This document shows, piece by piece, positions 10,311-42,290 of a stretch of 55,166 bases of DNA (position 1 is its first letter; every line of letters starts with the position of its first letter). The stretch spans positions 1 to 55,166 of the forward strand of contig CANJBZ010000029.1 of assembly GCA_947473475.1 (NCBI GenBank), written 5' to 3'. The translations under genes and the position numbers were made by a program. Source of the DNA: Alphaproteobacteria bacterium. GTDB taxonomy: Bacteria; Pseudomonadota; Alphaproteobacteria; Micropepsales; Micropepsaceae. Below the pieces are notes generated by a model, which did no database searches, was not told where the DNA came from, and was given only the letters and a program-made list of their open reading frames with translations.

Positions 10311-11177
10311 TCAAAAGTCTGGGCGCGCGGCCGTCGGAATCGGTTCCAAGCCTTCACCGAAAATGTCGCCGTTGTTTTCGGCGCAGACCATTTCTTCCAT
10401 GGGTCCCTTCGGCACGCGTGGGTCGGCGGCGTCGCCCGCGGCGCCAATCCGGCGATAACGCTGGACGGCGTCCCACGGCATGGTGAAGGCGCCGGGGTCT
10501 TCGACATGCACGCGGGCTTCCAGCGTTTTGCCGCCGTCGATCAGGCGGAAGCGCTCCGTCACATGCAGCTTGTCGGTGTGCGGCGTCCGGTAATTGTCGA
10601 CGAAAGTTTTGGCGTTCAACCCTGTGGTGTCCACCACCAGCGTGTCGCCTTCGTAGCGGCCTACCGATTCGCCGAACCATGACGGCGTTAGCCGCGGCGA
10701 GTGCGGCTGATCGAGATAGATGTGGCGGACCTGATGATCCTCGGACCAGATCATCGTCACCTCTTTCGGCGTCTGCAGAAAATAGACCGGGAACACCGGA
10801 TACAGCAGGAAGCCGGGCATACCGATCGGCCAGCACCGCTCTTTGGGTGTGTAGGCCGCCTTGCCGGAGAGCGCCCGCTCATTGGCTTGGCGCAATGCAT
10901 CCCGCACCCAGGGCTGAAGGATTGGATTGGAGAGATCGGCGACCCGGAATTGCGGCCGTCCGGGCACCGGGCGGTGCGCCGGATCGGGCATAATCGGCCC
11001 GGGTCCGCTGGCCGGCGGCAAGAAGTCCTGTCCGGCGGCGATCCAGGCGGTCGAAGCATCCGGTGCGAAGTTCGGGACACCATCGCCCTGCGCCGCCGGA
11101 GCCGGCAGCGCAGCAACCGCGGCGGCAAAAACGCCCGCCACAATGGCTGGCGCGAAACGGCTTTCCATTTTCCGCAT
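10311..11177 (-). CDS. Exported 'RPDF-family' protein of unknown function, copy 1
   Basis: Function unknown; 288 residues with a Sec signal peptide (MRKMESRFAPAIVAGVFAAAVAALPAPAAQG). The ATG at 11177 is preceded by GGGAGGGG. It is one of three paralogues in this window (others at 31842 and 32707). Shared blocks are PNFAP near the mature start, PPASGPGPI, FRVADLSNPILQP, a Cys in ERCWPIG, TMIWSEDHQVRHI, WFGESVGRYEGDTLVVDT, TPHTDKLHVTERFR, VEDPGAFTMPW, a second Cys in MVCAEN, and the terminal ARPDF. The two conserved Cys suggest a disulfide in the periplasm. A related, widespread uncharacterised family with the WFGDSxGxxEGDTLVVDT theme occurs in Acidobacteria and Proteobacteria (from memory). 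It diverges from the thiamine-diphosphate enzyme operon across 180 bp, which suggests shared regulation. Confidence 0.7.
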   Translation of the reverse strand: MRKMESRFAPAIVAGVFAAAVAALPAPAAQGDGVPNFAPDASTAWIAAGQDFLPPASGPGPIMPDPAHRPVPGRPQFRVADLSNPILQPWVRDALRQANERALSGKAAYTPKERCWPIGMPGFLLYPVFPVYFLQTPKEVTMIWSEDHQVRHIYLDQPHSPRLTPSWFGESVGRYEGDTLVVDTTGLNAKTFVDNYRTPHTDKLHVTERFRLIDGGKTLEARVHVEDPGAFTMPWDAVQRYRRIGAAGDAADPRVPKGPMEEMVCAENNGDIFGEGLEPIPTAARPDF

Positions 11178-11359
11178 GACCCGCCCCTCCCAGGCTTCTT
11201 TCCCGGAAAAATAGCACAAACGAGCGGTTGAAGAATGCTCCCCTGCAACGGACAAGGACACGACAGTCTGATGGGACAGAATTGACGCTCGTGATATATC
11301 AGATGCCAGCGGTGCTGCCGGGAGGGCGCGCCGGGTACTGATCTGTCTGGGAGGGACTC

Positions 11360-13315
11360 ATGGCACGTAAGACGGGCACCGGCGTGGACCGGCGCAAATT
11401 CCTGGCCGGTGCGGCCGTAGCGGGCGCGGCAAGCGCGATTCCCGCCGTCGGCGCAAATGCGCAAGCAGCCAACCCGCCGAGCGCCGCGTTCGTGCGGCGG
11501 CCCTCGACGGCGGCGGCACAGGCCGAAATGGCCGGAAATGTTACCGCCTCTCCGGGGACGCTGTCGGGTCCCGCCGGATCGGACTTCATGGTGGATGTGC
11601 TGAAGTCCGTCGATATGGACTTCGTGTTCTCCAACCCGGCCTCTTCGGCCCGCGGCATCCACGAGTCGATCGTCAATTACGGCAGCAACAAGAAGCCCGA
11701 ATTCATCACCTGCCTGCACGAAGAATCCGCCGTCGCCATGACGCACGGCTACTTCAAGGTTGCCGGCAAACTCGCCGGCGCGCTGTGCCACGGCACCGTT
11801 GGCCTGCAGCATGCGGCGATGGCCGTCTACAATGCGTGGTGCGACCGCGCCGGCTCGTTCATCATGGTCGGCAACCGCATGGACGCGGATACGCGCCAGC
11901 CGGGCGTTCCCACCATTCATGCCGTCCAAGACCCTGGCTCGCTGATCCGCGACTTCACGAAGTGGGATGACAATCCGCAATCGCTGCAGCACTTCGCGGA
12001 AAGCGCGGTGCGCGCCTACAAGATCGCGATGACGCCGCCGCACGAGCCGGTATTGCTGGCGCTGGAAGAAAAGCTTCAGGAAGATGCGATTCCGAAAGGT
12101 CCCCGCCCGCTCGTCATTCCGAAGCTGAACATGGTTGCGCCGCCGAGTGGCGATCCGAACGCAGTCCGCGAAGCCGCGCGCCTGCTTGCCATGGCGGACA
12201 ACCCGGTCATTGTCGTCGATCGCCTCGCGCGCACGCCCGCCGGTGTGAAGCGTCTGGTGGAATTTGCCGAGACTCTGAACGCCCCCGTGGTCGATCAGCT
12301 CGGCCGCATGAACATGCCGAACAACCACCATCTCTGCGTTATCGGCGCCGGCAATCTGATCGAGAATTCGGACTGCATCCTGGGCCTGGAGCTCACGGAT
12401 TTCTGGGGCACGGTCAATGAAATGGACGACAGCGCCACAGCCGACTACCGGCCCAAGATTAAGGAGGGCACCAAGCTGATCAGCATTGGCGTCGCCGATC
12501 TTTACATCCGCGCCAATTATCAGGATTTCGAGCGCTATCAGCCGGTGGACATCGCCATCGGCGCGGATGCCGAAACCACGCTGCCCCTGCTCACCGAATA
12601 TGTGAAGCAAGCCATCCCCGCAGACCGCCGCGCCATGATTGCCGCACGAGGCGACAAGGCGAAGAAGGGGCAGGCCGCCGCCCGCGAGCGTATGCTCAAG
12701 GCCGCCGCCGACAATGCGTGGAACGCGTCGCCAATCAGCTCCTCGCGCTTCTCGGCGGAAATCTGGGCGCAGATCCGCAACGAGAACTGGGCCCTGGTGT
12801 CGCGCGATTCCAGCCCGTCGAACTGGCCGCATCGTCTGTGGACGTTCGATCAGCATCACCAGTTCATCGGCGGTCCCGGCGGCGCGGGCATCGGCTACGG
12901 TCTACCGGCGGCAGTGGGCGCAGCGTTCGCGCATCGCTCCATCGATCCAACACGTCTGTGCATCAATATTCAGAACGACGGCGACTCCATGTATGCGCCG
13001 GGCGCTCTGTGGACGGCGGCGCACCACAAGGTGCCGATGCTCACCATCATGTGGAACAACCGCGCCTATCATCAGGAGATCATGCACTTGCAGCGCATGG
13101 CCAACTGGCGGCAGCGCGATGCCAGCACGGCCTATATCGGCACGACGATCCGGAACCCGTTCATTCAATACGCGAAACTGGCGGAAAGTTTGGGCCATGT
13201 CGGCATCGGGCCGATCACCGATCCGAAGGACTTGGCTGCCGCCATCAAGCGCGGCATCGAAGCGGTGAAAATGGGCGAGCCCACGCTCATCGACGTCGTC
13301 ACGCAGCCGCGCTAA
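11360..13315 (+). CDS. Tat-exported thiamine-diphosphate-dependent enzyme (acetolactate synthase/benzoylformate decarboxylase fold)
   Basis: Predicted periplasmic ThDP enzyme of 651 residues. Residues 1-36 are a twin-arginine signal (VDRRKFLAGAAVAGAA...ANAQA), unusual because this superfamily is normally cytoplasmic. The N-terminal PYR domain has the cofactor-activating Glu ~121 in CLHEESAVAMTHGY. The C-terminal PP domain has NDG at 539-541 and NN at 566-567 with the Mg-binding Asp kept, i.e. the GDG-X24-NN motif with the first Gly replaced by Asn. The intervening ALWTAA matches the benzoylformate decarboxylase version. The middle domain (~265-390) lacks an obvious FAD-specific signature. GGGAGGG precedes the ATG. 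A cytochrome c gene follows after 15 bp and then a terminator, so these two form an operon. Decarboxylation of a 2-keto acid with electrons passed to the cytochrome is inference; plain decarboxylase or lyase activity is the alternative. Confidence 0.8.
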   Translation: MARKTGTGVDRRKFLAGAAVAGAASAIPAVGANAQAANPPSAAFVRRPSTAAAQAEMAGNVTASPGTLSGPAGSDFMVDVLKSVDMDFVFSNPASSARGIHESIVNYGSNKKPEFITCLHEESAVAMTHGYFKVAGKLAGALCHGTVGLQHAAMAVYNAWCDRAGSFIMVGNRMDADTRQPGVPTIHAVQDPGSLIRDFTKWDDNPQSLQHFAESAVRAYKIAMTPPHEPVLLALEEKLQEDAIPKGPRPLVIPKLNMVAPPSGDPNAVREAARLLAMADNPVIVVDRLARTPAGVKRLVEFAETLNAPVVDQLGRMNMPNNHHLCVIGAGNLIENSDCILGLELTDFWGTVNEMDDSATADYRPKIKEGTKLISIGVADLYIRANYQDFERYQPVDIAIGADAETTLPLLTEYVKQAIPADRRAMIAARGDKAKKGQAAARERMLKAAADNAWNASPISSSRFSAEIWAQIRNENWALVSRDSSPSNWPHRLWTFDQHHQFIGGPGGAGIGYGLPAAVGAAFAHRSIDPTRLCINIQNDGDSMYAPGALWTAAHHKVPMLTIMWNNRAYHQEIMHLQRMANWRQRDASTAYIGTTIRNPFIQYAKLAESLGHVGIGPITDPKDLAAAIKRGIEAVKMGEPTLIDVVTQPR

Positions 13316-13330
13316 CAGGAGCACTCATCC

Positions 13331-13714
13331 ATGCATAAGATTGTTTTCTCCGCTGCTGTCGTTGCTGCGTCTTTGTTCGGCATGTCCTCGGCATTCGCCG
13401 CGCAGGCCGCGCCGCAAGGCGATGCCGCCAAGGGGCAAGCGAATTTCGAACGCGTCGGCTGCTACCAATGCCACGGCCATGCCGGCCAGGGCGGACGCGA
13501 AGGCCCACGCATCGCCGACCCAGTGCCGCTGGCGTGGCCGGCTTTCCAGGCCTGGGTTCGCACCACGAGCGGCGACATGCCGCCCTATACGGCCAAAGTG
13601 CTGTCCGATCAGGAACTGACGGACATCTATGCGTATATCTCGTCAGTGCCGAAGGGCCCGGATTATAAATCGATCCCGCTGCTGACCGGGATGCAGAACA
13701 CCGCGACGCGCTAA
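13331..13714 (+). CDS. Exported monoheme c-type cytochrome, partner of the ThDP enzyme
   Basis: Periplasmic electron carrier of 127 residues. The first ~23 residues are a signal peptide (MHKIVFSAAVVAASLFGMSSAFA). One haem-attachment site CYQCH is at residues 44-48, followed by a Gly-rich stretch and GDMPPY, whose Met ~82 is the probable distal ligand. The C-terminal helix (LSDQELTDIYAYISSVPKG) is the usual class I cytochrome c ending. AACAGGAGCACTCATCC provides a GGAG ribosome site. It starts 15 bp after the ThDP enzyme and is followed within 25 bp by a strong terminator, so it is the last gene of a two-gene operon. It is the obvious candidate to accept electrons from, or deliver them past, the enzyme. 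Confidence 0.85.
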   Translation: MHKIVFSAAVVAASLFGMSSAFAAQAAPQGDAAKGQANFERVGCYQCHGHAGQGGREGPRIADPVPLAWPAFQAWVRTTSGDMPPYTAKVLSDQELTDIYAYISSVPKGPDYKSIPLLTGMQNTATR

Positions 13715-13736
13715 TCGTCATTATACGTACTTTCTT

Positions 13737-13766
13737 AAGACGGGGCTCGGGCCCCGTCTTTTTTTT
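13737..13766 (+). terminator. Strong rho-independent terminator after the ThDP enzyme-cytochrome operon
   Basis: Arms AAGACGGGGC and GCCCCGTCTT form a perfect 10-bp stem with TCGG loop (13747-13750), followed by six more T (13761-13766). The T-run is on the plus strand only, so it ends the operon that finishes at 13714 and not the minus-strand gene that ends at 13768. Confidence 0.92.
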
Positions 13767-33732: not shown

Positions 33733-34743
33733 TTAGAGCGGCGCCCCAGGAATGGCGATCTGGTCGCCCGTCGGGCCCGGTTTGATCATCGGCTTCTCCC
33801 ACATGATCATTCCGCGCAGATTGTCCTTCTGCGTGCCGGGCTTGGAGAGCGTGATGGTGTAGCTCTGCTTGTCGCGCGGACCGGCTTTGGGCCAACTCCA
33901 CTCGGCAACCTGCGCCTGCTCCTTGTCATCCTTGCGGACGCCCTTGTAGCCGGCGCCCGTTGCAGCCACGACCTGCGAGCCTTCCGGGATGACAAGGCGA
34001 ACCGTGACGCCTTCGGCACCCAAGCCCTTACCAGCCAAGCCCAGATTTTGGACGTCCAAGGTATATGTCACGCCCTTCTCGCCCGGCTGCCCCTTGGTCA
34101 AACGGCCGCGCATGGCGGCGCGGAAGCCAACGTCGGATTTGATCCAGTCGAGGATTTGCGCGAGCTGCGCTTCCGTCACGCGGTCGGGGTTGAAGTTGCC
34201 CATGTGCGGTCGCGCCGGGCCGTTGCCCGTACCAACCGCCTGGGCATGGCGCTTGATGCCGTCCACGTGGTTATAAACGAGGTCCTTCAGCCAATTGATG
34301 TCGGCATTGACCGCGCCCATGTCGTCGCGCGGACCGATCAGCACGTTGCCATGGCACTGACCACAGCCGACGGAGATCATCGTGCGCTGACCGGCGGGGG
34401 CATTGGCCGGGACTTCGGTCTTCCACGGGCCGGGCTGCGCTGGCTTCGGCATGGAGGCGAAGTAAGCGGTGAGATTGTTGATTTCCTGATCGCTGACCTG
34501 CACATCCGTGAACATCGGCATGATGCCCCACGGCTTGCGGATAGCCTGGCGAACCTGCGCCGCGCTCAATCCACGGCCGGCCAGATCAGGCCCAAAAGCG
34601 CCTTCGGCCACGCCACCATGGCAGTCTTTGCAGCGAAGCTCATCAGCCCACAGAGTCTTTCCCGCGGCGGCATCGCCCTGTTGGGCAGCAGCCATCCCAG
34701 CGGTCAGCGGCAGCATGGCAAGCGCAAGCAATAGTTTTTTCAT
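33733..34743 (-). CDS. Exported diheme c-type cytochrome with C-terminal beta domain
   Basis: Periplasmic electron carrier of 336 residues, signal peptide MKKLLLALAMLPLTAGMAAA. Two haem sites: CKDCH (38-42) and CGQCH (127-131). Met ligands may be in MPMFTD and HMGNF. Residues ~220-336 form a separate non-haem beta-strand domain (GVTYTLDVQNLG..., VTVRLVIPEGSQVV, QSYTITLSKPGTQ) resembling an Ig-like domain with an alternating strand pattern, which is not common for simple cytochromes. GGGAGGGAAATCAC precedes the ATG. It is the first gene of the minus-strand run with two RPDF genes and the metallo-beta-lactamase, with a 120-bp gap after it. Its role is unclear: donor or acceptor for a periplasmic dehydrogenase is likely. 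Confidence 0.85.
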   Translation of the reverse strand: MKKLLLALAMLPLTAGMAAAQQGDAAAGKTLWADELRCKDCHGGVAEGAFGPDLAGRGLSAAQVRQAIRKPWGIMPMFTDVQVSDQEINNLTAYFASMPKPAQPGPWKTEVPANAPAGQRTMISVGCGQCHGNVLIGPRDDMGAVNADINWLKDLVYNHVDGIKRHAQAVGTGNGPARPHMGNFNPDRVTEAQLAQILDWIKSDVGFRAAMRGRLTKGQPGEKGVTYTLDVQNLGLAGKGLGAEGVTVRLVIPEGSQVVAATGAGYKGVRKDDKEQAQVAEWSWPKAGPRDKQSYTITLSKPGTQKDNLRGMIMWEKPMIKPGPTGDQIAIPGAPL

Positions 34744-39154: not shown

Positions 39155-40621
39155 TTAAACTTGGATAAGCGGGCGGAGTTCGGTGATGGATTTCACTGTT
39201 TCCAGCGCGAAGATTTTTTCGACGAGGCGACTGTATTTTTCGGCGCCGAGGATGGGCACGCAGAGGTCGCGGCCCTTGGCGATCATCTCTTCGCGGGTCA
39301 TCGGGTTGCCGGAGGTGCCGCGCACGGTTTCGACGCGTTCGGAAACGGTTTTGCCGTCCATGGTCGTCACTTCCACAACCGCGGCGCGCTTGGGCAGAAG
39401 CTTGTCCAGCGAAGCGTCGCCGACCAGGGTCACCTTCGCGCGCTGTTTCAGAATGTTGGCGTCTTTCATGCGCGCGACATCGTGGGCGGCGCGGAAGCTG
39501 GCGGTCTTGTCGATGAGCATGACGGCCAGCATGTGCTGCAGGCAGATGTCGGGGATTTCGCGATTGTCGACGACCGTGGCTTCGTGGCTGGCCACGCGCG
39601 CGACGATTTTCTGCACATTATCGGGCGTCAAATTGTTCTTCTTGATCAGCGCTTCCAAAGCATCCAGCGGCGCTTGAATGGGCGAACCGACGGTCCATTT
39701 CTTCACGTCGGTGCGCATGATTTCGTAGCGCTCGCCCAGACCGTCGATCAGCACGGAAGGATTATTCATAGGCTGATAGGCTTCGATGAAACTGTCCGCG
39801 CCCGAGAGCACGTCTTCCACGCCGGTGCCGCCTGCTTGCACCAGCAGCGCGGCGGTCAGGCCGTTGCGCGCGGGCATGCCTGCGAAATCGAAAGACTTTT
39901 CGATGTGCTGGGTGTCGCGCTGCCAGGAGCCGATGCCCGACGCCGACTGCGCCGTGTAAGACAACAGCCAGCGCATTTGCTGCGCCGACAATCCGGCGAT
40001 CGATCCAGCAGCAGCAGCCGCGCCGAACGTCCCGGCGATGGCGTGCGTGCTGCGGTGCGTGGCGGCCATATATTCCTGCTTGCCGAGCATTGCGGTGATA
40101 CGTGGGCCGATGTCGTAGCCGAGCGCCACGGCGCGCAGGAACCGCTCGCCGCTGACGCCCAATTTCTCGCCCATCGCGAGAGATGACGGCAACACGGCAG
40201 AACCCGGATGCGATAGCGAGCCGGGATGCGTATCGTCGGTTTCATCGGAATGCGCGAGCAGGCCATTGACCAGCGCCGCTTCAATCGGCCCGCACAGCAG
40301 ATTGGAGGCAGGAATGGTGCTGCTGCGCTCGCCCGGATTGAGCTTGGCGAAGTTGAGCGCGAATTTTCCCGGCGGCAATTCGGCGCCGGAAATCATCGCG
40401 CCAAACGTATCGAGGATCGCCTGTTTGGTGCGTTCGACCACCGCGTCGGGAAGTTTGCGGTTTGCCGCGTCCGCCATATAGGTGGACAGTTTGGTCATCA
40501 GCGGGCTGATACCCGACGATGCAGCGCGCGCAACGCGCGGAAGCGCCGTTGCCGCCGCCAACGCCGTTCCGGTCCGCAGGACATTGCGGCGGGATAGCGC
40601 CGCCGGTTTTTTGTCGATCAT
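39155..40621 (-). CDS. Tat-exported MmgE/PrpD-family protein, copy A
   Basis: 488 residues. The family includes 2-methylcitrate and aconitate-related dehydratases and isomerases (PrpD, itaconate-forming CAD1). A twin-arginine signal is present: LSRRNVLRTGTALAAATALPRVARA, unusual because PrpD is normally cytoplasmic. MmgE/PrpD blocks: AILDTFGAMISGAELP, AHSDETDDTHPGSLSHPGSAVLPSSLAMGEKLG, YDIGPRI, FGAAAAAGSIAGL, and KWTVGSPIQAPLDAL. PHLLR-type His and Asp residues of the active cleft are kept (SDETDDTHPG). GGGAGG with 5-nt spacing precedes ATG 40621. It is the second gene of a tandem pair, 20 nt after its paralogue. Physiological substrate unknown. Confidence 0.88.
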   Translation of the reverse strand: MIDKKPAALSRRNVLRTGTALAAATALPRVARAASSGISPLMTKLSTYMADAANRKLPDAVVERTKQAILDTFGAMISGAELPPGKFALNFAKLNPGERSSTIPASNLLCGPIEAALVNGLLAHSDETDDTHPGSLSHPGSAVLPSSLAMGEKLGVSGERFLRAVALGYDIGPRITAMLGKQEYMAATHRSTHAIAGTFGAAAAAGSIAGLSAQQMRWLLSYTAQSASGIGSWQRDTQHIEKSFDFAGMPARNGLTAALLVQAGGTGVEDVLSGADSFIEAYQPMNNPSVLIDGLGERYEIMRTDVKKWTVGSPIQAPLDALEALIKKNNLTPDNVQKIVARVASHEATVVDNREIPDICLQHMLAVMLIDKTASFRAAHDVARMKDANILKQRAKVTLVGDASLDKLLPKRAAVVEVTTMDGKTVSERVETVRGTSGNPMTREEMIAKGRDLCVPILGAEKYSRLVEKIFALETVKSITELRPLIQV

Positions 40622-40641
40622 TTTTTCCTCCCGGAAATTCA

Positions 40642-42126
40642 TCAGGCCGTCAGCAGCGGCCGCAGCTTGCGCACGTCATCCAACATCTCAAGCGTGTTGA
40701 TCTGTTTGATCAGGGCTTCTGTTTTGTCCTTGCCCAGAACAGGTCCCATAAGATCGCGCACTTTGGCGTTCACGCCTTCCGTGTTGAGCGGGCTTTCCTT
40801 GGTGCCGGGCGGATATTTGGTGAGGTGGCTTACCTTCTTGCCGTCCTTCATCGTCACTTCGACGAAGCCGGCGCGCGGTGCTTCTTGCGTTTGCAACGCT
40901 TTATCGGCGACCAATTCGACGCGCTTGCGCAGATCCAGCAGCACGCGATCCTGCATCAGGGGGCGCGAATGGCTGTCGTCGAAGGAAACGGCGCCCTTTT
41001 GCAGGGCCACGGCGATCAGGTGCTGCACGTTCACGTCGGGCATGGCGTTGTTGTTCACGATCCCCGCGCCATCGGGCGGCAGACGCACCTGCACATGCTG
41101 CACATTGTCGGGCGTCAGATTGTTCTGCCGCCGCAGCGTCAGAAACGCATCCAGCGGCGCTTGGATCGGATAACCGACGGAAAAGGTCTTGATCGCGGTC
41201 TCCGTGACGTAGAAGCGCTTGCCCAGATCGGCGACCATCTCTTCCGGCTTTGGTTGCGTGGAAAGCGCAATCAGCAAATTGTGCTCGCCTTCCAGCACGT
41301 CGGGCACGCCGGAAAATCCAGCCATGACCATGCTGGCGGCGGTCACGCCGTTACGCGCGCCCATTCCAGCGAAATCGAAGGCTTTCTCGACGTGCTCTTC
41401 GTCGCGCACCCAGCTCCACAGGCCCGATACCTGTTGCGCCGCATAGGAAATCGCAAAGCGCATGCCCATTTCATCGAGCCGCGCCATGGAAGCCGCAGCG
41501 CCGACTGCGCCGAATGTTGAGCTTGTTCCTTCCGCGCTGCGATGCGTGCCGCGCACAAGGTCGGGTCCTAGCGCCACCAGCAGGCGGCAGCAAAGATCGT
41601 AGCCGAGCGCGACGGCGCGGATCATTTCAGGGCCGGATCGTCCCAACTTTTCACCCATTGCCAGGGCAGAGGGGACCACCGAGCAGCCGGGATGGGCTTT
41701 GGTGACCGGCTCGAAATCGTCGGTCTCATCGGCGTGCGCGCACATGGCGTTGGCGAGCGCCGCATTGACGGCGGTCGTGCGGAACGGACTGGCGACAACG
41801 GAGGCTTCCTGTACCCCGCCTTGGCTTTGCACGAATTGCAGCGCCATCTGACCGGGCTTCAGGCGGGCGCCGGAAATCATCGCGCCGAGCGTATCCAGAA
41901 TACGGTGCTTGCATTCGATGAGAACCTGCGGCGGCAACTCGCGCGCGCGGGCCTGCACCATATAGCGGGCAAGCCGGCCCGTGACGTCGGCTCCCTTCGC
42001 CGCCGCCGGGGCAGTGGCAGGAGCGGCATTCACAGCGTTTGGCAATGCCGCGGCAGCGATCAGCCCCCCGGCGCCCTGCAACATCGTGCGCCGCGCAAAA
42101 CCCGGCTTTTGTTCCGTTTCGCTCAT
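40642..42126 (-). CDS. Tat-exported MmgE/PrpD-family protein, copy B
   Basis: 494 residues from ATG 42126; a further upstream frame to 42261 is not family-like. Twin-arginine signal FARRTMLQGAGGLIAAAALPNAVNAA. Family blocks: HRILDTLGAMISGARLKPG, AHADETDDFEPVTKAHPGCSVVPSALAMGEKLG, GYDLCCRLL, STFGAVGAAASMARLDE and SVGYPIQAPLDAF. Parallel to copy A but clearly diverged (for example DFEPVTKAHPG in place of DTHPGSLSHPG). First gene of the pair. A periplasmic dehydratase or isomerase heterodimer is a tempting model because PrpD proteins are dimers. Divergent from the small membrane protein at 42291. Confidence 0.88.
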   Translation of the reverse strand: MSETEQKPGFARRTMLQGAGGLIAAAALPNAVNAAPATAPAAAKGADVTGRLARYMVQARARELPPQVLIECKHRILDTLGAMISGARLKPGQMALQFVQSQGGVQEASVVASPFRTTAVNAALANAMCAHADETDDFEPVTKAHPGCSVVPSALAMGEKLGRSGPEMIRAVALGYDLCCRLLVALGPDLVRGTHRSAEGTSSTFGAVGAAASMARLDEMGMRFAISYAAQQVSGLWSWVRDEEHVEKAFDFAGMGARNGVTAASMVMAGFSGVPDVLEGEHNLLIALSTQPKPEEMVADLGKRFYVTETAIKTFSVGYPIQAPLDAFLTLRRQNNLTPDNVQHVQVRLPPDGAGIVNNNAMPDVNVQHLIAVALQKGAVSFDDSHSRPLMQDRVLLDLRKRVELVADKALQTQEAPRAGFVEVTMKDGKKVSHLTKYPPGTKESPLNTEGVNAKVRDLMGPVLGKDKTEALIKQINTLEMLDDVRKLRPLLTA

Positions 42127-42290
42127 GCCGTCCCCTATCCCCCGGTATCGTTTGGTTGGTTTGTACCAGTTCTGCAGGCCGCGTGGCACCGCTAGCCCGC
42201 GCCTTTCCCGCGTCCGTGAATGGCAATTTTGCCCCTTGCAACGGCAACCCGGGGGCCTCAAAACCTGAACAGACAGAAACAGGGGGCTAC

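Follow-up and report, generated by a model that had tools for sequence, protein, structure and literature searches.

Twin-arginine signal thiamine diphosphate enzymes encoded with their own cytochrome c: a possible periplasmic route for 2-oxo acid oxidation

Our data show that a thiamine diphosphate (ThDP) enzyme with a twin-arginine translocation (Tat) signal and the cytochrome c encoded directly behind it form a unit of inheritance, and this holds also where one genome carries several paralogues. The pair was studied in a stretch of 55,166 nucleotides from an alphaproteobacterium of the family Micropepsaceae (contig CANJBZ010000029.1 of assembly GCA_947473475.1; the whole stretch is hereafter called the window). 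By textbook accounts ThDP enzymes act in the cytoplasm, and those that catalyse oxidations hand their electrons to lipoate, flavin or iron–sulfur partners. A fold like that of benzoylformate decarboxylase (BFD) and the association of Tat export with an operonic cytochrome c are both of known kinds; what appears to be new is their combination on a ThDP enzyme. As the function of the pair we lean towards a periplasmic reaction in which a 2-oxo acid is oxidatively decarboxylated and the cognate cytochrome c accepts the electrons. The finding suggests an undescribed route by which soil bacteria oxidise keto acids beyond the inner membrane.

The gene pair and its constancy

All elements of the two-gene unit lie on the forward strand of the window. 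The ThDP enzyme (651 aa; 11360–13315), assigned from its open reading frame (ORF), Pfam matches, relatives, AlphaFold2 model and fold and profile matches, begins with MARKTGTGVDRRKFLAGAAVAGAA, with GGGAGGG immediately 5′ of it. Its twin-arginine signal peptide (11360–11465) consists of DRRKFLAG, a hydrophobic stretch and an AxA-like cleavage site placed by eye. Against the Pfam models TPP_enzyme_C, TPP_enzyme_N and TPP_enzyme_M the protein scores 79, 58 and 46.5 bits, the cut-offs being 21.9, 26.8 and 30.4. A spacer of 15 bp with a ribosome-binding-site-like AGGAG (13316–13330) separates it from a monohaem, class I-like cytochrome c (127 aa; 13331–13714), recognised from its ORF and from Pfam, where it passes the cut-offs of Cytochrome_CBB3 and Cytochrom_C. 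This protein has a Sec-like N-terminal signal, as judged by eye, and shows the class I features of a haem motif (CYQCH) and a downstream methionine (in MPPY). An intrinsic terminator follows (13737–13760; a stem of 10 pairs, then a T run), detected by a terminator scan and by folding (–18.9 kcal/mol for the region, z –3.2). A preliminary description of this DNA, made from the sequence alone, had proposed just this unit, the Tat-signal ThDP gene, the 15-bp gap, the CxxCH cytochrome and the terminator, at 11360–13766, an end coordinate that includes the terminator; all of these elements are present. A sigma-70 scan did not find a promoter.

Relatives of the enzyme were collected from fetched loci into a family set of 78 distinct members (identity cut 39%, lowest identity 40.6%, range to 100%), which is not a random sample and holds many members from one genus. 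Duplicates by the last 400 residues were excluded before counting, as were matches that span fewer than 480 query residues or end before query residue 640, and family places without a fetched locus were left out of the counts. Twin arginines with a hydrophobic stretch are found in 74 of the 78 members, and for the remaining four, whose own start is not readable, the frame was taken from a truncated or late one; the signal claimed for the window protein is present and marks the whole clade.

The pairing was counted for the 72 members whose downstream sequence extends to 600 bp or more, and the position of the haem motif was read in three frames, which also caught cytochromes whose ORF extended upstream. 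A same-strand CxxCH lies within 500 bp of the stop codon in 65 of these 72 (within 400 bp in 62), so the two-gene order, which the preliminary description had suggested looking for in other genomes, does recur. By comparison, such a motif lies within 500 bp behind 6 of 292 control ORFs (200 aa or longer) from 51 of the same loci, which are mechanical ORFs and not verified genes. Three of the six members with less downstream room also show a cytochrome, which brings the total to 68 pairs. The order is found in Alphaproteobacteria and Acidobacteriota and in one Betaproteobacterial record. The closest relatives outside the clade are non-exported sister enzymes with 31–37% identity and the same domain span, for example at C12:74049 in the window's own genome and in Phyllobacterium zundukense (WP_262291239). 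Among these sisters none of 10 has the twin arginines and none of the 9 with room has the cytochrome; at two sister loci (L087, from annotation, and L025, by eye) a tripartite tricarboxylate transporter precedes the gene and an NAD(P)-type dehydrogenase follows it.

In all 68 paired cytochromes a Met-Pro pair in the region of the sixth ligand, one Arg and one Gly are invariant, while CxxCH was the search criterion for paired cytochromes and so is not independent evidence. Because the window's genome encodes TatC and two cytochrome c assembly proteins, both exports would be possible in this organism.

A FastTree tree of 89 rows sets the non-exported sisters apart on one side of a single branch (support 95); the Tat label therefore changes once. 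The cytochrome label changes eight times, which fits one gain and seven single-tip losses, although the tree cannot separate gain from loss for this label. Distances among the ThDP proteins and among their cytochromes correlate over the 68 pairs (r = 0.63). Shuffling the cytochromes solely within the paralogues of each genome gave a mean r of 0.28 and a maximum of 0.53, and none of 2000 trials reached 0.63; since within-genome shuffles never reach the observed correlation, each ThDP gene is inherited together with its own cytochrome. It could be argued that the cytochrome is co-expressed for some other reason, be it redox sensing, a role as electron donor or plain operon inheritance, the more so as adjacency together with vertical inheritance alone would also yield a distance correlation. 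The seven single-tip losses show, however, that the pair is breakable, yet it is retained in 65 of 72 members over large divergence and is absent from every sister with room, and we hold this explanation to be very improbable.

Fold and active-site residues of the ThDP enzyme

The fold class predicted for the enzyme is BFD-like. Its AlphaFold2 model, built from 46 rows, has a pLDDT of 87.7 and a pTM of 0.87, with residues 1–47 below pLDDT 50. The best VIA-align matches of this model are BFDs (Z 36.2–37.4, root-mean-square deviation 2.5–2.8 Å, 505–517 residues), and a profile search of solved-structure sequences also has BFDs at the top. The Foldseek order disagrees with the VIA-align ranking, as it places glyoxylate carboligase first, then HKA synthase and benzaldehyde lyase.

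In an alignment of 44 relatives, chosen after the twin-arginine screen, the catalytic Glu121 and the Mg2+/ThDP residues D540-G541 and N566-N567 are invariant (44/44), as are both Tat arginines, for which these rows had been screened. The first Gly of the GDG motif is Asn in the window protein and varies across the family. With the BFDs of Pseudomonas putida (1BFD), 4Q9D and the 4-hydroxybenzoylformate decarboxylases 6QSI and 7ORX the family shares the three-domain ThDP fold (Z 36–37), the DG...NN metal/ThDP motif and equivalents of Glu47 (44 of 44), Ser26 (41 of 44) and His70 (42 of 44). It differs from them in sequence (∼19–23% identity), in the twin-arginine signal, in an N-terminal extension of ∼70 residues, in the cytochrome partner and in the absence of His281. 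The position of the latter is Thr351 in the window protein and, within a loop that aligns weakly, most often Thr (17), Ala (9), Leu (6) or Val (5 of 44) in the family. The histidine of the BFD motif FPTRHP was also considered as His281 and rejected, as numbering makes it His246. According to PMC6028569, BFD is non-oxidative, and earlier work implicated its His281 in protonation of the enamine, a role that was later disputed. Loss of this histidine would fit an enzyme that oxidises the enamine rather than protonating it.

Among the best 25 of 47 NCBIfam models none reaches its curated cut-off; the top model, PRK08327, gives 213 against 456 bits, and the BFD model PRK07092 gives 147 against 493. 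Models of pyruvate oxidase and acetolactate synthase are among the weak profile matches and, together with the first place of glyoxylate carboligase in Foldseek, they would suit a pyruvate-oxidase-like enzyme whose middle domain binds FAD and passes electrons from ThDP to FAD and on to cytochrome c. Flavin-to-cytochrome c transfer has precedents (PMC12224317). We nevertheless consider such an arrangement improbable. VIA-align prefers BFD to acetolactate synthase (best Z 37.4 versus 34.9), which is a weak argument as the two rankings disagree, and an informal look recognised none of the familiar acetolactate-synthase FAD motifs. A pyruvate oxidase row is absent among the VIA-align matches listed, which excludes nothing.

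Oxidative decarboxylation in the periplasm and its alternatives

Periplasmic oxidative decarboxylation is favoured because the ThDP family shows both signposts, the Tat signal and the operonic cytochrome c. In flavin amine oxidoreductases these two features were kinetically shown to predict dehydrogenases that use cytochrome c, and the authors propose the same signposts for other flavoprotein families (PMC12224317). NicA2, Pnao and their relatives resemble our family in the Tat signal on the enzyme and in the small cytochrome c that adjoins it in the operon, and in both groups a few Tat members lack the cytochrome while non-Tat relatives are without it. The enzymes themselves are different, an FAD amine oxidoreductase there and a ThDP decarboxylase-type fold here, and the window ThDP protein has no match to PF01593 (Amino_oxidase). 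Electron transfer was measured in the enzymes of PMC12224317, whereas for the ThDP family we infer it. Fused enzyme–cytochrome proteins are also described there, and none was seen among our members, no search having been aimed at fusions. The ThDP family may work like the Tat/cytochrome c amine dehydrogenases but is not a member of that group, and by analogy the flavoenzyme precedent makes electron transfer likelier than the sequence alone would.

In the mechanism that we propose, the ThDP protein would fold and load ThDP and Mg2+ in the cytoplasm before its export by Tat, and the cytochrome c would be exported by Sec and loaded with haem in the periplasm. There the enzyme would add to a 2-oxo acid, at a guess one of the aryl type, release CO2 and form the ThDP enamine, which the cognate cytochrome c would oxidise in two one-electron steps. 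The resulting acyl-ThDP would hydrolyse to the carboxylic acid, and the electrons would pass on to the respiratory chain. Their route from ThDP to haem may be direct or may lead through a cofactor that escapes our view. In its strictest form the proposal is of a new respiratory entry point, an exported, flavin-free ThDP family in which a dedicated cytochrome c takes the electrons straight from the enamine, with no NAD, flavin, lipoate, ferredoxin or quinone involved; this form is plausible but somewhat doubtful.

It should be noted that several observations weigh against oxidative decarboxylation with the cytochrome as acceptor. Neither a flavin nor an iron–sulfur relay is visible, we know of no ThDP enzyme that reduces cytochrome c directly, and the closest solved folds by VIA-align are non-oxidative decarboxylases. 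Co-inheritance of adjoining genes does not prove contact between their products. Seven of the 72 members have no downstream cytochrome (L124, L077, L125, L129, L075, L024 and L030:2961); L024 (G000:C15) belongs to the window's own genome, and the only cytochrome beside L030:2961 lies upstream of it, beyond another ThDP copy. The preliminary description had taken homologues without the cytochrome, if common, as a reason to abandon its interpretation; at seven of 72 they are not common. Finally, associations of the family with transporters and amine oxidases were noticed post hoc, concern few loci and leave out the window copy.

The likeness to BFDs (VIA-align Z 36–37) would also suit a ThDP decarboxylase or carboligase that works non-oxidatively in the periplasm and sets free an aldehyde; the cytochrome c would then serve a later oxidation, for example by an aldehyde dehydrogenase or by an adjoining flavin amine oxidase of the twin-arginine type. 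An amine oxidase is indeed close to some pairs: in four of six genomes of the genus (G289, G292, G294 and the window's own, G000) the only or best PF01593 protein (E ≤ 1e–20) lies 1.4–3.8 kb from a family member, its twin-arginine-type N-terminus being judged by eye. In the other two, G290 and G293, which are fragmented assemblies, the amine oxidases are on other contigs than the pairs. Moreover, the window unit contains no dehydrogenase gene, and the cytochrome stands directly behind the ThDP gene in 65 of 72 members and tracks it within genomes. This alternative seems to us rather unlikely.

Oxidative decarboxylation by a ThDP enzyme that feeds the respiratory chain is itself familiar from the pyruvate oxidase PoxB, which is cytoplasmic, FAD-dependent and quinone-reducing; the family described here differs in its predicted export and in its pairing with a cytochrome c. 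The literature matches listed, whose coverage mostly excludes subscription papers, contain no report of a ThDP enzyme that is exported and paired with a cytochrome c. If the periplasmic reaction is real, keto acids would feed respiration without import, and an exported ThDP branch with its own cytochrome c would carry the Tat-plus-cytochrome rule to a different organic cofactor. A direct step from ThDP to haem, if shown, would reach further than the combination alone. Public records label the family by its cofactor alone ('thiamine pyrophosphate-binding protein'). Ready-made enzyme/acceptor pairs are available, including those on Caballeronia and Novosphingobium plasmids, and the idea is therefore directly testable.

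Distribution and genomic neighbours

The distribution of the family is patchy. Its 78 members come from the window's genome (six copies), the order to which it belongs, Acidobacteriota, one Caballeronia plasmid and one Novosphingobium plasmid. In the order, 13 of 96 genomes have a match (E ≤ 1e–120, own genome included), and in Acidobacteriota 12 of 297 (E ≤ 1e–125, centre included). In the large genome draws no more than three or four candidates were scored for each genome. In an even draw of 398 Pseudomonadota genomes (E ≤ 1e–125) the own genome alone matched, and among 289 genomes of the class, with at most four candidates scored in each, a match of >37% identity was found only in G000 and G140, the remaining four matches belonging to the non-exported sister group. 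The preliminary description had named the Tat-ThDP and CxxCH gene order, if seen in many alphaproteobacteria, as support for its view; its interpretation holds for the twin-arginine clade and the recurring gene order but not for this breadth across the class.

Relatives were also found on nine contigs of metagenome-assembled genomes, titled Micropepsaceae, Hyphomicrobiales, Alphaproteobacteria, Acidobacteria or Acidobacteriia. A contig of 5.3 kb titled Acidobacteria (L027, QHWJ01000167.1) carries a pair of 79% identity that groups in the tree with the window and alphaproteobacterial rows, which may reflect mis-binning or recent transfer. Sixteen plasmid records had a match, and two of them gave family members. 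On plasmid p3 of Caballeronia zhejiangensis A33_M4_a (NZ_CP084287) a gene annotated 'thiamine pyrophosphate-binding protein' is followed after 8 bp by a 'c-type cytochrome' of 206 aa with two haem motifs, and on the plasmid of Novosphingobium sp. KACC 22771 (NZ_CP117882) a twin-arginine ThDP ORF is followed after 2 bp by a cytochrome c and then by a second one. One of the other 14 plasmid matches was examined (Phyllobacterium) and has neither twin arginines nor cytochrome.

The window's genome (3.87 Mb, 99% complete) encodes five further full-length copies with 45–52% identity, four of them with a cytochrome paralogue directly behind, as well as one relative of 35% identity without a Tat signal. 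Three of its ThDP–cytochrome pairs lie within 13 kb. Up to ten family matches are found in one genome (G293), nine of which were seen with their own cytochrome, and pairs may form arrays, four head-to-tail in G293:C132 (L070, 6319–15585) and three each in G292:C3 and G294:C1. The duplicated copies presumably serve different substrates. A family copy in G292 (C37:34186–36123), left out of the counts, has an in-frame TAG with the CxxCH ORF still adjoining, and is perhaps a decaying pseudogene.

Weak hints to the substrate come from some of the neighbouring genes. Aromatic acid/H+ symporters (TIGR00895) gave 123 matches in 26 genomes, none over the curated cut-off, and for six of the 123 one of the 84 family places is no more than 5 kb away, where 1.4 were expected (P = 0.003, post hoc and with approximate genome sizes); in the own genome 0 of 18 do so. 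A single-linkage neighbour cluster labelled 'MFS transporter' was dropped, as it was mixed with ABC proteins. At their loci, G292 and G294 have a relative of a family-3 solute-binding protein encoded between amine oxidase and pair, and the own genome shows this arrangement by eye. It would be reasonable, if weak, to suppose that an amine or amino-acid oxidase supplies the 2-oxo acid to the ThDP enzyme and that the aromatic acid product is imported. The three-pair cluster of the own genome (L021, G000:C4:22000–41999) is situated beside the only PF01593 amine oxidase of that genome at E ≤ 1e–20, which has a twin-arginine-type start, and also contains a solute-binding-like protein and a protein of 651 aa resembling a receptor by eye.

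Around the window copy there is neither a symporter nor an amine oxidase. Its neighbours are an amidohydrolase, an arylamine N-acetyltransferase-type gene and a divergently encoded, secreted-looking protein without a Pfam match (10311–11261, – strand). Relatives of the last (36% identity over 268 aa and 54% over 134 aa) occur in the vicinity of Tat-ThDP pairs elsewhere in the genus (L074, L079), which is an association only. Antisense to the ThDP gene runs an open frame of 700 codons (10757–12859, – strand), which looks like a GC-rich shadow frame and not a gene. Elsewhere in the window, 20 kb from the pair, a protein of 336 aa has matches to cytochrome c domains (33733–34743, – strand), and two adjacent MmgE/PrpD paralogues (39155–40642 and 40642–42261, – strand) together span 39155–42261.

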